A stretch of 64,000 nt of DNA from a virus: IMG/VR virus record IMGVR_UViG_3300029923_000015, positions 1 to 64,000 of that record. One strand, written 5' to 3'. Each line of letters begins with the position of its first letter. The stretch's first letter is position 1. The notes under the pieces are model-generated. The model did not search any database. It was not told the origin of the DNA and saw only the letters and a list, made by a program, of their open reading frames with translations. Of this stretch, positions 4,870 to 14,744 are shown piece by piece. The position numbers were made by a program, and so were the translations under genes.

Positions 4870-5471
4870 TGAGCAATATTAAGACAATTAAAGTAATTAA
4901 AGAGACGATGGGATTACTACCTGGGACTACACTATCAAGAATGGATAACACAAAAGACTTTTTTAATATAGAAGATTGTGTTGGAGAAGGCTATTTAATT
5001 AGCACCTCTATGGTCGTATCTCCAAATAGCGTAACAGATGAATTCTTTGAAGTAACTGAATGGTTTGATCCTATTAAAGATCCTAAGTCAAAACAAGAGC
5101 CAAAATTAACCTACAAACAATTGGCTAATGAATTAAAAATGTATATCGATTTGCACGATCTGCAATTAGAGACTATTAGTGAATTATCTAATACAATAAA
5201 TGACTTAAATAGTAAAGCCCAGTCTCAGCATGATGATATATATTCTTTGATTAAAGAAGTAACTAAATCGCGCAATATTATTAATAAAAGAGATAATAGA
5301 ATCGATTCTAAATTAATTGAGTTCAAGATAGAATTAGATAATATATCAAAACAACTAGAGTTAAATAAAATTGATGGACGTGATATCTCTGGAGAGCGTC
5401 TAGAGATGTTAAGCGAATCATACATAGTACATTATAATATGATTGATTTACTAGAAAAGATTAAAGCATAA
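4866..5471 (+). CDS. coiled-coil hypothetical protein (201 aa)
   Basis: Two parts are visible. The N-terminal ~75 residues form a small beta-rich domain (VIKETMGLLPGTTL, then EFFEVTEWFDP). I have seen segments of this type in small phage proteins without known role. Residues ~80-200 are a long charged helix with heptad character, likely a coiled coil that drives oligomerisation. The ATG overlaps the upstream stop (ATGA), and its own stop overlaps the next start (TAATG). It is soluble, without signal or membrane segment. Confidence 0.7.
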   Translation: MMSNIKTIKVIKETMGLLPGTTLSRMDNTKDFFNIEDCVGEGYLISTSMVVSPNSVTDEFFEVTEWFDPIKDPKSKQEPKLTYKQLANELKMYIDLHDLQLETISELSNTINDLNSKAQSQHDDIYSLIKEVTKSRNIINKRDNRIDSKLIEFKIELDNISKQLELNKIDGRDISGERLEMLSESYIVHYNMIDLLEKIKA

Positions 5472-5848
5472 TGAACAAGTTTATAAAAACCATATCTCCA
5501 GACAATCTAGGTTATGAGTTTTTACGTAGCTTAAATGGATTATTAGATCTAACAGATAGAGAGTTAGAATTGCTCTCTATCTTCTTGGACTTATACTTAA
5601 AGAACATGAAATCCAGAAGAGGTAAAGCTCCAATAGACTCTACGGAGAATAGACGTCATGTGATGAGAGTAACTACAGTTACAAAAGATAATCTATGTAG
5701 ATATATAAAAATGTTTAGAGAGAAAAAGATATTCGTAATAGAAGATGGGATGTTAGTTATGAGTAGAGCCTTAACCCCTATAGTAATAGGTTCAAAGACA
5801 GTCCAAATAACAATGATATTAAAACTAAAAGAAAATGAACTACTATAA
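5471..5848 (+). CDS. putative winged-helix DNA-binding protein (125 aa)
   Basis: Residues ~25-50 (DLTDRELELLSIFL) look like a first helix. Residues ~72-98 (VTKDNLCRYIKMFREKKIFVIEDG) look like a recognition helix followed by a beta wing, an arrangement typical of winged helix-turn-helix regulators. It is basic in the middle (MKSRRGK). A transcriptional regulator or replication-initiation accessory factor is possible, but no named family is recognised. It is coupled to the upstream gene by TAATG, and its tail overlaps the next ORF by 14 nt. Confidence 0.6.
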   Translation: MNKFIKTISPDNLGYEFLRSLNGLLDLTDRELELLSIFLDLYLKNMKSRRGKAPIDSTENRRHVMRVTTVTKDNLCRYIKMFREKKIFVIEDGMLVMSRALTPIVIGSKTVQITMILKLKENELL

Positions 5849-6095
5849 TCCAACTAGTTATACTAAATGTCCATCTCTATGGTCTAGATTATTCAGATCA
5901 GAAGATACCACATATTATTTTACTTCTGACAATAAACTTGAATGGAAATCAAAAGGCCAAAGGAAAGCAGAGAAGGAATTGGCTGAATACAAAACAAAAA
6001 GAAATAATAAATGTAATCGTAACTTATATAATGATTACTATATTATAGTAAATAAATCATGGTATCCAAAAACACAGACATATATACTGTTTTAG
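5835..6095 (+). CDS. small basic hypothetical protein (86 aa)
   Basis: Tyr- and Lys-rich, with no membrane segment. The centre (KSKGQRKAEKELAEYKTKRNNK) is strongly basic, which suggests nucleic-acid or ribosome contact, but no motif is recognised. It overlaps both neighbours (14 nt upstream, 37 nt downstream), as expected in this tightly packed operon. Confidence 0.55.
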   Translation: MNYYNPTSYTKCPSLWSRLFRSEDTTYYFTSDNKLEWKSKGQRKAEKELAEYKTKRNNKCNRNLYNDYYIIVNKSWYPKTQTYILF

Positions 6096-6322
6096 CAGAT
6101 AAGCACAAGCTACATAAATCGGTTGTGTCAATGATTTGTAATCACCCTTTCATATTTGCATCTAGGAGAATATCAAATCCAGATGATGAAAAAACTTTTA
6201 TGTTTGCGTATTTGTTTAAAATAAGATTAAAAAATAGACTAAAAGGTAAAAAAAGAATATTATCAGATGAACAAAAAGAAAGAAGATCTAATAACGAAGA
6301 ATGTAGCAACAAGGGCATTTGA
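6059..6322 (+). CDS. small conserved-looking phage protein (87 aa)
   Basis: The segment KHKLHKSVVSMICNHPFIFA followed by DDEKTFMFAYLFKIRLKNRLKGKKR resembles short proteins in other Bacteroides phages that I cannot name functionally. The second half is very basic. It starts inside the preceding gene, and its end overlaps the start of the next (6267) by 56 nt in another frame. All overlaps are in the same direction, typical of the region. Confidence 0.6.
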   Translation: MVSKNTDIYTVLADKHKLHKSVVSMICNHPFIFASRRISNPDDEKTFMFAYLFKIRLKNRLKGKKRILSDEQKERRSNNEECSNKGI

Positions 6323-6434
6323 TTATGCAGTATACAATGTAATTTGTAAGGGAAATAAAGAAAAATCAACTACTTGTATAGAGAGAAAGGCTGGTTGCGA
6401 TATTAGGAACACATTCATTAAAAAGTTAGGCTAA
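6267..6434 (+). CDS. very small hypothetical protein (55 aa)
   Basis: An ORF of 55 codons from an ATG within the end of the previous gene to TAA at 6432. It fills what would otherwise be a 113-base gap and ends 1 nt before the next ATG. The product is basic with three Cys (ICKGNK, TTCIERKAGC) and a helical end. A small zinc-bound fold is conceivable but has only three Cys. Function unknown. Confidence 0.55.
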   Translation: MNKKKEDLITKNVATRAFDYAVYNVICKGNKEKSTTCIERKAGCDIRNTFIKKLG

Positions 6435-6435
6435 T

Positions 6436-6618
6436 ATGGGCCACGATATTAATTTCTTCATAGATGAGGATGGGATGTCTTTAAATTGTACCGAAAGAGA
6501 CCTGGATAATTCAGATAAAGGATATGCATTGAAGCAACTTAAAGATGGGTTTAGACTTAGTATGATAAGAAAACAAATGATGGGGATAGTATATATATGG
6601 AGAAGAATAAGAAAATGA
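6436..6618 (+). CDS. small hypothetical protein (60 aa)
   Basis: The product starts MGHDINFFIDEDG and becomes basic at the C-terminus (WRRIRK). No family is recognised. It sits 1 nt after the preceding stop, and its TGA overlaps the ATG of the zincin gene (ATGA at 6615), which supports its being a translated link in the operon. Confidence 0.5.
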   Translation: MGHDINFFIDEDGMSLNCTERDLDNSDKGYALKQLKDGFRLSMIRKQMMGIVYIWRRIRK

Positions 6619-7046
6619 TAATACATGAGTTCTACTCAGATATATTCCCAATTCAATTTTGGGTTTTAATAAATCCATCACAAGAGCAGATAGATGATGT
6701 ATTCGAACCAAAAGATAGGGATGCATCAAATGAGATAATAGGAAACTGGAAAGCTTGCGTGTCTGAAATAAATATAAAAAAAGACACAGATAAATATGGT
6801 ATATGGGTTGCATTATTAGAGTTAGACAAAATAACGCCTGGAGTATTAGCGCATGAAGCATGTCATATAACAGATACAATATATACTCACCTTGGTGCTA
6901 AATTGATTGACCTAGGTGGAGAACCACATGCATATTTTATGGAGTGGGTAGTAAGGTGTATGGATGAAGCAATAACAGACAATAAAAAAGAAAAAATGAA
7001 TAAGTTAAAATGCGGCGGAAAAAAGAAACCACCTATTAAAAAATAA
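6615..7046 (+). CDS. zincin-type metallopeptidase-like protein
   Basis: HEACH (residues 80-84 from this start) is a canonical HExxH zinc site, preceded by a helix LLELDKITPGVLA and followed 19 residues later by GGEPHAY, in which Glu-103 or His-105 could be the third ligand. The C-terminal tail is Lys/Pro-rich (KCGGKKKPPIKK). It has the size and spacing of small phage zincins; the substrate is unknown. I chose ATG 6615 because it forms an ATGA overlap with the upstream stop; ATG 6597 in the same frame is an alternative that adds six residues. Confidence 0.75.
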   Translation: MIIHEFYSDIFPIQFWVLINPSQEQIDDVFEPKDRDASNEIIGNWKACVSEINIKKDTDKYGIWVALLELDKITPGVLAHEACHITDTIYTHLGAKLIDLGGEPHAYFMEWVVRCMDEAITDNKKEKMNKLKCGGKKKPPIKK

Positions 7047-8769: not shown

Positions 8770-8970
8770 ATGGCATATATAGATCAAACAATAAAATATT
8801 ATAAAGGTTCCCCTAAACTAAAGAAAGCAATAGCCGCAGGAACTCTTATTGATAATAGACTTAAATTAGAATACTCAAATAGCGGCACAACAGATTGTCA
8901 CTTTGATATGCAAAATTATTTAAAATATTTTAGTTACGAGGCATTATCAATAATACCTAAATCGATATAA
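8770..8970 (+). CDS. small hypothetical protein (66 aa)
   Basis: I place the start at ATG 8770, immediately after the previous stop (TAATATGG), rather than the in-frame ATG 8737 that lies inside the upstream gene. The product begins MAYIDQTIKYYKG and has a mixed charged body with no recognisable motif. It ends 1 nt before the membrane-anchored nuclease gene. Confidence 0.55.
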   Translation: MAYIDQTIKYYKGSPKLKKAIAAGTLIDNRLKLEYSNSGTTDCHFDMQNYLKYFSYEALSIIPKSI

Positions 8971-8971
8971 T

Positions 8972-9370
8972 ATGGATGGATTAACACAATTATTTTGGAT
9001 ACTATTTTATTTGCTTTGCGCTTGGGTCGCATGGAAAATACCATCATTATATATAAAGGTACTTTACTTAAGAGATAAAATAAAGGCAAAGGATTATGAA
9101 TATTCTACACTTTTATCGCAAAAGAAATCATCTGAAGTTAGACTTGGTCAGATATCAGAGAACTTAGCACCATTCTTAAAAGACTTTAAATACAATCCAA
9201 AGAAAGCACATTTCTTAGGTAATCCAATAGACTATATTATATTTGAAGAAAATAAGATAGTATTCCTCGAGATTAAATCAGGTGAGTCTAAGTTAAGTGA
9301 GGGCCAGAGGAATATAAAGAAATTAATACAAGATGGCAAGGTTGAATTTGACCAAATGAGAATTGATTAA
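8972..9370 (+). CDS. membrane-anchored Holliday-junction-resolvase-like nuclease
   Basis: Residues ~6-30 form a transmembrane helix (LFWILFYLLCAWVAW). Then comes a charged helix and a compact PD-(D/E)XK core: RLGQISENLAPFL, Asp-87 in NPIDYII and Glu-100/Lys-102 in FLEIKSG, followed by LSEGQRNIKKLIQDGKVEF. The pattern matches the family described as endonucleases related to archaeal Holliday junction resolvases (Pfam PF10107), whose members often carry an N-terminal membrane helix. It probably cuts branched DNA; the reason for membrane anchoring is unknown. The 57-nt spacer that follows holds no gene. Confidence 0.75.
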   Translation: MDGLTQLFWILFYLLCAWVAWKIPSLYIKVLYLRDKIKAKDYEYSTLLSQKKSSEVRLGQISENLAPFLKDFKYNPKKAHFLGNPIDYIIFEENKIVFLEIKSGESKLSEGQRNIKKLIQDGKVEFDQMRID

Positions 9371-11294: not shown

Positions 11295-11315
11295 TTATTG
11301 GTATATATAAAGAGC

Positions 11316-13860
11316 ATGATAGATTTTAATAAAAAAATAAAAAATAGCGAAAAATTTAGAGCGCCAGCAATTTTTTTCCAAAAACATGGACTATACTGTT
11401 TTTCCCCATATGGAACTACTGAGTATCTAACCTATTGGGATACTGAGGCCATTAGATGCGTAGAAGGATATACTGCCCCTGATGGGGATTGGATAAGTGG
11501 GTATAATTATTTTTACTTAAATTATTGTCCGATACTTAGATTAGTCGAATTTGAATATAAGGATAGGTTTGGTAACATGAAGATGCGCAGAGAAAAGGCT
11601 AGGAAATTTCCTGACTTTTATGATTATGACTACTATTACTTTATGGGCGTTCAGGAAGCGCAAGAGGAAGGTGCTCACATGGCAGTTTTAAAGGCTCGTG
11701 GTAAAGGTTTTTCGTTTAAAGGAGGATCGATGCTCGATAGAAATTATTATCTGATACCAGACTCTAAAGGCTATGCAATTGCATCTGAAACTGAATATTT
11801 AGTTAGAGATGGTCTACTTACGAAGGCCTGGGATTACATGGACTTCATAGATGAACATACTGCATGGGCGAAAAAACGTCAGGCTATTAATACAAAGATG
11901 CATAGAAAGGCTTCTATTATTACTACAGATGAAATGGGTAATAAAATAGAGGTTGGTTATAAGTCTGAGATAATTGGAGTATCATTAAAGAATGATCCCA
12001 ATAAGGCTCGTGGTAAACGTGGTCAACTAATCCTATGGGAAGAGGCAGGATCGTTCAAGGATATACTTCAGGCGTGGCAGATAGCTAGACCTTCTGTAGA
12101 AGAAGATGGTAAAGCTTATGGTCTAATGATAGCATTTGGGACTGGTGGTGATGAAGGTTCTAGATTTGATGGACTGAAAGAAATGTTTTATAATCCATCT
12201 GGATATAATATAAAATCGTTTCCAAACATATGGGATGAAGGGGCTGATGCAAATCAATGTGCTTTTTTTGTTCCTGTATACGCCAATATGTCTGTACTAG
12301 ATGAAAATGGACATAGAATGTTTATGGATAAGAATGGTAATAGTCTTAAGACTAAAGCTGTTGATTATGCCATGACCGAGCGCAAGAAAGTAGTTGACGG
12401 ATCCTCTGACTCAAGGGCTATTGATAGGTATATTGCAGAGAACCCTATAACTCCTCAGGAAGCTGTTTTAGAACTCACAGGGAACATATTCCCTAAGAAG
12501 GAATTAATGGTACAGTTGGCCTCAATACGTACAAATAAGAAGCTACAGGCATATAAGCAGGTCGGTGATTTGAATTATGTTAATGGAATATTGAGTTGGG
12601 AAATAAAACAAAAAGGAGATATAACTAAATACCCATTAGGTAGAGACGATAAGCATGAAGGATCAATAGTAATATGGGAACACCCATCACAAGACACATC
12701 AGGGCAATTATACATAGCGGGGTGTTTATTACCAGGAGAGCAAGTAATTACTGACTATGGATTAAAAAACGTAGAAGATGTATCATTTGAAGATAAATTG
12801 ATAAATGAAGATGGATTGGAAAAGAGTATCGTAAATCTACAAAGATATGAAAAAGTAGATGAACCTATATTTAAAGTAAAACCAAATGGATCTTTTAGGA
12901 CTACGACGTTTACTCAAGAGCATCCTATATTATTAGATTCTGGATTCAAAAAAGCATCTGAATTAAAGAAAGGAGATGTACTTAAAATACCAAATAGATA
13001 TATAGATAGTAATAATAATTATATAGATATTATATCTAAATATTTTACAGAGGATTTTAATTACAATGATCCATTATTTTGGTGGTTTCTAGGTATATGG
13101 ATAGGAGATGGTTTTAATAATAAGAATAGTCAATCTCATGATATATATGTTGCATTTGGAATCAAACAAATTGAAGAAGCAAATTTTTATAAAAACGTAG
13201 TTTATTCATTGTTCCATAGAAAAACATTAGTTTGTGTTAAAAATGGTGGAAATACTACTAGGTTTACTTATAAAATATTATATGATTTCTTAGAGAATGA
13301 ATTTGGTAGATATTCATATGGAAAAAGAATTCCAGAATGGGTTAAATATGCACCAGAAGAATTAAAAAAATATTTTATATCTGGATATTTAGATTCAGAT
13401 GGATCTGCATATTTTGATAAAGGAAAATTAAGAGTATCATTTACTAGTATAAATTTAACATTACTAGAGTCTATCCAAGATATTTTATATTCAATGAAAA
13501 TTAGAAATAGTATAGTCAGACACTCAAAAGAAGGTATATCTATATTTAATAATAAAGAATATAAACACAAAGAATCATATAAGGTATCAATTCCAACATC
13601 AGAAATAAAAAAAATATTGCCACTAGATCTTAGTATACTAAATAGCAGAAAAATTAATGAAATAGAGAAATACTCATCGTCTTTACCCAGAAACACCGTA
13701 GAGAAAGCAGTAGTCTACTTCGTGAACAAATACATATTCCTTAAAATAGAGAATATAGCAGAATCAAAATACACTGGTACTGTTTATAACTTTGAATGTG
13801 ATACACACACATATATGTGTAGGAATATCGTCACACACAATTGTGACCCGTTGACAAACT
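11316..13860 (+). CDS. terL: large terminase subunit, 5' exon with in-frame intein
   Basis: This exon encodes the ATPase half of the packaging motor: Walker A-like KARGKGFS (residues 126-133) and Walker B LILWEE (238-243). At residue 470 the host protein stops at YIAG and an intein begins; the protein resumes at CDPLTN, the first metal-binding Asp of the RNase H-like nuclease. The frame then meets TAG, with the T at 13860. Joining 13860 to 14092 removes a group I intron and reads CDPLTN-YDHDKAGTNSLG. Mature terminase would be 692 residues, normal for crAss-like phages. I chose ATG 11316; an in-frame TTG at 11298 is less likely. Confidence 0.9.
12723..13841 (+). mobile_element. LAGLIDADG intein in terminase
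   Basis: The 373-residue insert begins with Cys (CLLPGEQVITDYG), has the block B signature TQEHPIL and ends VTHN before an extein Cys, the four features needed for protein splicing. Between the splicing halves lie two LAGLIDADG helices, LGIWIGDG (intein residues 123-130) and ISGYLDSDG (219-227), so it probably also encodes an active homing endonuclease. It sits directly before the conserved CDP of the terminase nuclease, a conserved site of the kind inteins favour. Splicing should release a seamless terminase. Confidence 0.92.
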
Positions 13861-14091
13861 AGCGGTGCGATGTATGTCGTAAGAATTGAGCAAAATCGGT
13901 GAAAGTCTCTAGTAGAAAACACCGAGGTAAATAATTAGATTTCGAAAGGCTAATTATCACCGTAACGCGTAGCAGATGAATAAATATAATTCTGCCAAGA
14001 GTGCTCGACAAGAATCAAACTTGATAATGTACGCTGAGCTATATGGCGACATATAGAAGTAAGGATAAAAAGCCTTGCGATAACAAAACTG
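13861..14091 (+). ncRNA. ORF-less group I intron in terminase
   Basis: The standard group I helices can be drawn in order: P3 TTGAGC (13886) with GCTCGA (14003); P4 CGGTG (13897) with CACCG (13920); P6 GGT..ATAATTAG (13926-13938) with CTAATTAT.ACC (13950-13961); P7 GCGTA (13967) with TACGC (14030); P7.1 GCAGA/TCTGC (13972-13995); P8 CAAG/CTTG (14009-14023); P9 CTATAT/ATATAG (14039-14056); P9.1 AAGG/CCTT (14061-14076). P7.1 points to subgroup IA. The 5' exon ends in U and the intron in G, as the mechanism requires. Excision restores the terminase frame. P1 (ACU with GGU, 13858-13866) is short, so the exact 5' site is the least certain point. Confidence 0.85.
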
Positions 14092-14744
14092 ATGATCACG
14101 ATAAAGCTGGGACCAACTCATTAGGTGCTACATTTATATATAAACGTATGCAAAACTTTGAATCATATTATGATATCCTAGTTGCCGAGTATACTGGTAG
14201 ACCTGATACGGCAGAAGATTATTATGAGAATGTACGTAAATTATTACTATATTATAATGCTAGATTGCTTTATGAAAATGAACGTAAAGGTATATTTCCA
14301 TACTTCACACAAAAGCATTGTGATTATTTGCTAGCGGATCAACCTGATATTATAAATGATATTATAGGCAAGTCTACAGTACAAAGACGAAAAGGCATCC
14401 ATATGAATACCCAAATAAAGGATTATGGGGAAGGTCTTATTAAGGAGTATCTTAATGAGGAATTTGCTCCCGGTAAAAAATGTCTTACTACTATTCTGTC
14501 AGAACCTTTACTAGAAGAGTTAATACAATATAATGATAAAGGTAATTTTGACCGAGTAATAGCACTTATTATGGTCATGATATATAGGCAGCAACTACAC
14601 AATATGCATGTGAAGAAAAAGAATATAGAAGTAAGAAAAAATATACTCTTTAATAAACCATTATTCGGCAAAGAGTGGTGGGATTCAAATGATAGCGGCC
14701 TAGAAGAAATAACAAAAAATTCAATAGATATAAATTGGAATTAA
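14092..14744 (+). CDS. terL: large terminase subunit, 3' exon
   Basis: This is the remainder of the nuclease domain, beginning YDHDKAGTNSLGATFIYKRM after splicing. The motif around SLGATFIY is the strand that follows the first catalytic Asp in crAss-type terminases. The rest is helical and basic and ends 1 nt before the portal ATG. An ATG at 14043 in the same frame lies within the intron and would add a non-homologous lead peptide, so I regard it as not used. Without splicing the nuclease would be separated from the ATPase by in-frame stops. Confidence 0.88.

Follow-up and report, generated by a model that had tools for sequence, protein, structure and literature searches.

The window, the whole stretch of DNA analysed here, comprises positions 1 to 64,000 (64,000 nucleotides) of the IMG/VR virus record IMGVR_UViG_3300029923_000015. 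The source record has 78,731 bases, its kin are crAss-like phages of the Suoliviridae, and a megablast search against a phage collection returned no relative. In this window, the gene for the large terminase subunit (terL) spans approximately 11316–14744 on the plus strand and is interrupted twice, by an intein and then by a group I intron. The first exon (11316–12722) encodes the ATPase and the N-extein (ending in ...QLYIAG) and matches the terminase large subunit family phrog_6681 (E = 2e-82); the upstream terL ORF opens at a TTG at 11298, and the start used by relatives is the ATG at 11316 (MIDFNKK). This exon is followed by the 373-aa intein (12723–13841), a 10-nt exon piece (13842–13851; TGT GAC CCG T, that is, Cys-Asp-Pro and the first base of a Tyr codon), the ORF-less intron of 240 nt (13852–14091, with the omega-G at 14091), and the exon for the nuclease domain (14092–14744; Y-DHDKAGTNSLG...; phrog_6681, E = 7e-54). 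Because the intein ends 10 nt 5' of the intron, the codon of the presumed nuclease motif sits between the sites of protein splicing and RNA splicing.

To place these two sites in the protein, the TerL structure of an uninterrupted relative was predicted (34 sequences; mean pLDDT 84, pTM 0.61). The predicted structure resembles T4 gp17 (E = 3.6e-15), and a PDB sequence search with TerL gave no match. The Asp of the CDP motif closes a strand in this model (residues 466–471 of the relative's TerL) and is invariant in 34 TerLs; judging from the usual place of that residue, we take it to be the first nuclease aspartate. According to the model, the intein and the intron would thus interrupt the strand and loop that hold this presumed catalytic residue.

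The insert at 12723–13841 has the sequence features of an intein with a LAGLIDADG endonuclease, and both splicing and cleavage activities are predicted. An alignment of eight inteins shows Cys1 (CLLPGEQV), an EHP block and the C-terminal VYNFECDTHTYMC...HN followed by Cys+1, and the insert carries two LAGLIDADG motifs (FLGIWIGDG and GYLDSDG). Its Pfam match to LAGLIDADG_3 (E = 1.6e-8) is above the cut-off, that to Intein_splicing (E = 1.1e-7, 32.3 bits) falls just under the cut-off of 35.8, and a PDB comparison returned PI-PkoII (E = 7e-5). Inteins of the same family were also observed without the intron in L086 (4001–5227) and similar loci, in T4-like terminases, at an Asp that looks homologous (G|CDVSRGD). 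At L038 (1969–3081, with flanks), TAG occurs in frame in the terL exons, at 5 of 400 and 3 of 190 codons examined; the 371-codon intein itself contains none, as if it had recently arrived from a donor with the standard code. In addition, four loci with the intein/intron site empty have terL ORFs of more than 1000 aa (L024, 2558–5674; L137, 1035–4145; L145, 344–3421; L166, 912–4136), which probably reflect a further intein elsewhere in terL.

A sequence-only reading of this DNA had proposed that a compact, ORF-less group I intron splits the terminase nuclease, and this proposal is borne out by three lines of evidence: covariation, the intron-free relatives and the intron's kinship with the terL intron of phage JCL1032. 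However, that reading had set the 5' boundary 9 nt too far downstream (start 13861, length 231 nt). The relatives and P1 place the 5' splice site after CCGT (base 13851), so that the 'LTN' codons are intronic and the earlier splice product, CDPLTN-YDHDK, was wrong by three codons. A comparison with intron-free terL relatives had been suggested as a check: these genes are continuous through CDPYDHDK (CDPYDHDKAGT or close variants), removal of the intron restores the frame, and the spliced terL reads CDP-Y-DHDKAGTNSLG, matching them. An unspliced transcript runs into a TAG at 13860–13862, and the ATG at 14043 is intronic and no gene start. P1 pairs the 5' exon CCGU (13848–13851) with GCGG (13862–13865), with a U.G pair at the splice site in all 19 alleles. 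In 19/19 alleles a U precedes the intron and a G closes it, in agreement with the ends read from the window. The earlier statement that no endonuclease ORF is present likewise holds, the longest stop-free frame across the 19 terL-site introns being 32 codons.

Helix positions were assigned manually in the window sequence and then tested on alignments that had not been fitted to the structure. Besides P1, the fold consists of P2 (13868–13871 with 13876–13879; missing in cr131_1 and cr7_1), P3 (13886–13892 with 14002–14008; 99.2% of cells paired), P4 (13896–13901 with 13920–13925), P5 (13906–13908 with 13914–13916), P6 (13926–13928 with 13959–13961) and P6a (13931–13938 with 13950–13957), these last two with changes on both sides in 8 of 11 pairs. 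The 3' half contains P7 (13967–13971 with 14030–14034; 100% paired, with one pair changing on both sides, in 6 sequences), P7.1 (13972–13976 with 13991–13995), P8 (14009–14012 with 14020–14023), P9 (14039–14044 with 14051–14056) and P9.1 (14059–14064 with 14073–14078). P4, P5, P7.1, P8, P9 and P9.1 were all supported by the 19-allele pairing test, and every helix named in the sequence-only reading (P3, P4, P6, P7, P7.1, P8, P9 and P9.1) is present. With six alleles, 97.9% of 340 cells were paired, and 23 of 58 pairs changed on both sides. With 19 alleles, 99.4% of 1007 cells were paired (shuffles, 84.8%), and both sides changed in 27 of 53 pairs; none of 500 shuffles scored as high for pairing or covariation, and sliding the partner strand by 1–3 columns reduced pairing to 26–48%. 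Chance is excluded as the source of this fold. Single-sequence folding gave a weaker signal (z = -2.5). The strands of P3 and P7 cross to form a pseudoknot, and the order P3-P4-P5-P6-P7-P8-P9 is that of group I introns. P7.1 and P9.1, elements of subgroup IA, are both present with covariation, and the intron may belong to that subgroup. Overall, the group I identity of the terL intron is close to certain, and self-splicing is predicted from its sequence.

A covariance model built from the core of six terL-site introns and searched against 56 sources matched introns of staphylococcal, lactobacillar, clostridial and crAss-like phages, including the JCL1032 terL intron (E = 4.7e-34), with which blastn aligned 71.6% identity over 83% of the query. 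The Rfam model RF00028, which had been proposed as a test, did not match the window even at E ≤ 10, but it also failed at E ≤ 0.1 on eight control loci including JCL1032; because JCL1032 and the seven other controls fail too, the missing match carries no weight and the test was uninformative. When genome contigs were searched for the intron-core pattern, 31 loci emerged, the majority from Firmicutes judging by record titles and none at the terL site. Most of the 23 family members examined at other sites adjoin or contain an endonuclease-like ORF, whereas none of the 19 terL-site introns contains one. Such ORFs were assigned by Pfam to GIY-YIG (L045, L052, L222 and L225) or LAGLIDADG (L048, L050 and L053), and by eye at introns akin to those of L222 and L225 and at L213; those at L051 and L055 look HNH-like by eye with no Pfam match, the ORF upstream of the L212 intron matches only DUF7487 in Pfam, and the introns of L046, L047, L049 and L054 contain no endonuclease-like ORF. 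As a side observation, the gene that same-family introns split in L222 (34–1876), L224 (9539–11339) and L225 (3926–5925), adjoining GIY-YIG endonuclease ORFs, is probably, by eye, a phage DNA polymerase. For the terL intron, the sequence-only reading had remarked that mobility would depend on another factor; this was sensible, but it overlooked a candidate, the LAGLIDADG intein that ends 10 nt upstream.

The occupancy of the terL site was then surveyed with exon, intein and intron scans, from which only the best 80 or the matches listed were taken, so that all counts are those of samples. The scans gave 235 sequences, of which 163 had both terL exons and the 72 others were dropped, and sequences of the same state were clustered at 97% identity. 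Among the matches listed, 115 clusters comprised 79 with neither element, 17 with the intein only, 17 with both and 2 with the intron only. Since the intein had itself served as query in one scan, a fair sample is limited to the window and the exon-queried scans; their 113 loci formed 92 clusters, of which, among the matches listed, 78 had neither element, 6 the intein only, 6 both and 2 the intron only. Exon-queried scans account for six of the 17 two-element clusters, and the intron occurs in 6/12 intein-bearing versus 2/80 intein-free clusters among the exon-queried matches listed (Fisher p = 3.2e-5). The ORF-less intron therefore tends to accompany an endonuclease gene close to its own site, as is expected of collaborative homing. 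The sequence GACCCGT precedes the intron site in 19/19 intron alleles of the first set, 18/78 empty alleles and 0/17 intein-only alleles among the matches listed. When only alleles with this 5' site are compared, the intron is present in 6/6 intein-bearing versus 2/20 intein-free alleles (matches listed; p = 1.2e-4).

An early set of loci had shown no intron without an intein, and this rule was rejected when wider scans gave at least five intron-only alleles (L185, L200, L248, L286 and L295), of which L248, L286 and L295 came from an intron-pattern search that contributed at least three. The L295 intron (reverse strand, around 8968–9210 of the reversed locus) is displaced 1 nt upstream, with the guide changed to match (CCCU with GGGG), and the L295 terL has Asn, not Cys, at the position of the intein's Cys+1. 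Two other features were noted by eye. The intron-only phage L185 carries inserts that resemble inteins, both in terL, within its ATPase portion (1127–1522), and in the portal gene (5425–6699), and reverse-transcriptase-like ORFs, possibly belonging to a diversity-generating element, lie upstream of terL in L200 (287–607) and in L072 (1594–2040).

The phylogenies link the intron to one kind of intein. The tree of terL exons, with 115 rows, requires 15 changes of the intron label and 27 of the intein label. In 9 independent pairs that differ in the intron across well-supported branches, the intein differs in the same direction in a mean of 7.0 pairs and in the opposite direction in 0.0, which barely reaches significance (median p = 0.016, range 0.008–0.125); with the three intron-pattern finds included, the numbers are 6.0 versus 0.7 and significance is lost (median p = 0.125). 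On the intein tree (34 rows), all 17 intron partners fall within one clade of 19 inteins (100/100 support), so that among the 34 intein-bearing alleles the intron accompanies 17/19 inteins of this clade versus 0/15 others (p = 1.5e-7). The two intein groups are interleaved on the terL tree, and for the same 34 rows the intron label requires 3 changes on the intein tree versus 5 on the exon tree. Intein and intron similarity remain correlated after removal of exon similarity, both across 17 alleles (r = 0.67, p = 0.0005) and within 11 alleles (r = 0.33, p = 0.02).

Individual alleles speak both for and against joint movement. The clearest jump is L059, whose terL is sister to the intron-free L073 (100/100) and whose intein and intron both group with those of the window. 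Similarly, L072 and L076 share 60–88% nucleotide identity in their exons (100-nt windows), 90.5% in the intein and 97.8% in the intron. L070 and L200 share 96–100% identity in the windows closest to the site, but the intein is missing from L200, and the L200 intron is 98.7% identical to that of L072/L076 versus 91.6% to that of L070; near-identical flanks with different intron types imply that introns can move between alleles independently of the intein. The window and L008 share 92% amino acid identity in the exon and 92% nucleotide identity in the intron, but only 58% amino acid identity in the intein. Strict co-inheritance of the two elements is rejected by these last two comparisons.

Models of gain and loss gave a consistent answer on one point. 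For the 92 exon-scan clusters, the AIC was 120.2 for joint gain plus loss, 124.0 for dependent single steps and 134.4 for independent gains, and joint gain also had the lowest AIC at three other rate caps. Joint gain was better than independent gains by 14 AIC units for these clusters and by 20 for the set of 118 rows. The dependent single-step model was best at the highest rate cap with 115 rows, where joint gain was best at two lower caps. With 118 rows, joint gain and dependent steps scored 247.4 versus 248.1 at one cap, and dependent steps in which the intein follows the intron scored 235.6 versus 242.2 for joint gain at a higher cap. Because the fitted rates reach their caps, the trees say little about the order of gain. 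Independence of the intein and the intron, however, is firmly a poor fit.

Several explanations compete with cooperation between the two elements. An intein and an intron might each target the same conserved nuclease motif without cooperating, their association reflecting shared exposure in some lineages. Both elements do insert within a conserved stretch, intron-only (at least 5) and intein-only (at least 17) clusters both occur, and L070 and L200 show separate exchange; but independent-gain models are worse by 14–20 or more AIC units and the intron tracks one intein clade (17/19 versus 0/15), which leaves this account unlikely. We consider it somewhat less probable still that another, free-standing endonuclease cuts the intron site, with the intein as a passenger or competitor. 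Such collaborative homing is known (PMC3984707, PMC10448857; sections considered here), the intron-only alleles need some driver, and genes of this type occur in the terL neighbourhoods of cr6_1, cr115_1, cr131_1 and JCL1032, yet inspection by eye of ORFs of at least 90 aa near terL in L200 and L070, and of the surroundings of the window terL, revealed none.

The order of events could also have been reversed, with the intron settling alone and the intein then preferentially invading, or persisting in, intron-bearing alleles. The best model for 118 rows at the higher rate cap has this form: alleles with the intron acquire the intein quickly, the intron is lost slowly where the intein is present, and it is hardly ever gained after the intein. 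However, joint gain has the lower AIC at every rate cap tried on the exon-scan set, and three intron-only rows of the 118 came from the intron pattern and so inflate the intron-only state; we regard this order as improbable. Finally, there might be no intron at all, terL being split and its nuclease part translated separately from the ATG at 14043. ORF calling does give an ORF at 14043–14744, and the cr131_1 and cr7_1 entries leave the C-terminal part unannotated, but the covariation of the fold across 19 alleles, the 79 of 115 terL clusters (matches listed) that carry neither element and the annotation of JCL1032 terL as a joined CDS speak strongly against it. Separate translation from 14043 was rejected, and its probability is very small.

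The explanation that we moderately favour over all of these is that an endonuclease-free intron often travels with the intein by co-conversion; for intein–intron cooperation as such, we put the chances at even or somewhat better. Under co-conversion, the RNA would splice first: with P1 formed at CCGU, guanosine attack and the omega-G at 14091 would lead to the assembly of the Tyr codon. The spliced mRNA would be translated, and the intein would then excise itself, joining G to CDPY. Since the stop codon within the intron comes after the intein, unspliced RNA could already yield the endonuclease. This enzyme would cut an intein-free terL near the shared site, and repair from the donor would copy the intein, the 10-nt spacer and the intron as a single tract, so that the intron needs no endonuclease of its own. 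Recombination or loss may occasionally separate the two. A more specific picture, to which we give slightly less than an even chance, is a two-part mobile element in which a nuclease-free ribozyme and a protein-splicing nuclease would share one target with a 10-bp spacing, one cut would spread both, and RNA splicing followed by protein splicing would flank a single presumed catalytic codon.

ORF-less group I introns are common. The survey data suggest, without proving, that an intein endonuclease helps the terL intron to spread. Natural alleles with neither, either or both elements, some of them near-identical elsewhere in terL, make it directly testable whether an intein carries a ribozyme along. 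If true, this would extend collaborative homing to inteins and would offer a contrast to the interference reported between neighbouring inteins. On the practical side, the nuclease half of terL has been left unannotated in the cr131_1 and cr7_1 database records.

Among known systems, the closest to the window's intron is found in Lactobacillus delbrueckii phage JCL1032, for which group I introns have been proven. Its terL intron belongs to the same RNA family, is small with no long ORF seen, and likewise interrupts a terminase gene, which is annotated as a joined CDS; it differs in lying in the early ATPase part of terL, in having an HNH gene adjoining terL and in having no intein at the intron. 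Delta-group crAss-like phages have TerL inteins, as well as introns in other genes (Yutin et al. 2021, PMC7886860), but those elements were found through their endonuclease domains, and the sections of that article considered here mention neither an ORF-less terL intron nor a shared site. In the gut Jug phages, small group I introns divide terL (2,513 introns with a mean length of about 206 nt), and metatranscriptome reads back the splicing of part of them (PMC12363816); these phages form an unrelated clade, and no terL intron–intein link is mentioned in the portion of the report drawn on here. Collaborative homing, in which an ORF-less intron spreads through a separate endonuclease cutting at or near its site (PMC3984707, PMC10448857; sections considered here), differs in that the endonuclease proposed here is encoded within an intein that lies 10 nt from the intron in the same gene. 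The nrdE gene of Bacillus phage SPbetac2 holds both an intron and an intein, but the accounts of it considered here describe no closely shared site or co-movement, and no title or abstract opening that we found described an intein endonuclease mobilising a group I intron. The Haloferax MCM inteins resemble the terL pair in being two self-splicing elements close together in one gene; when their co-homing was tested, both nucleases were active and interfered, with no sign of frequent co-homing in the sections considered (PMC10643990). Unlike those two inteins with two active nucleases, the terL pair has one nuclease only, joint gain is favoured over independence, and one break may serve both elements. 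Lacking a nuclease, the intron would escape the clash between two breaks that has been reported for neighbouring inteins. By kind, the terL intron is an ordinary group I intron; its partnership is unusual.
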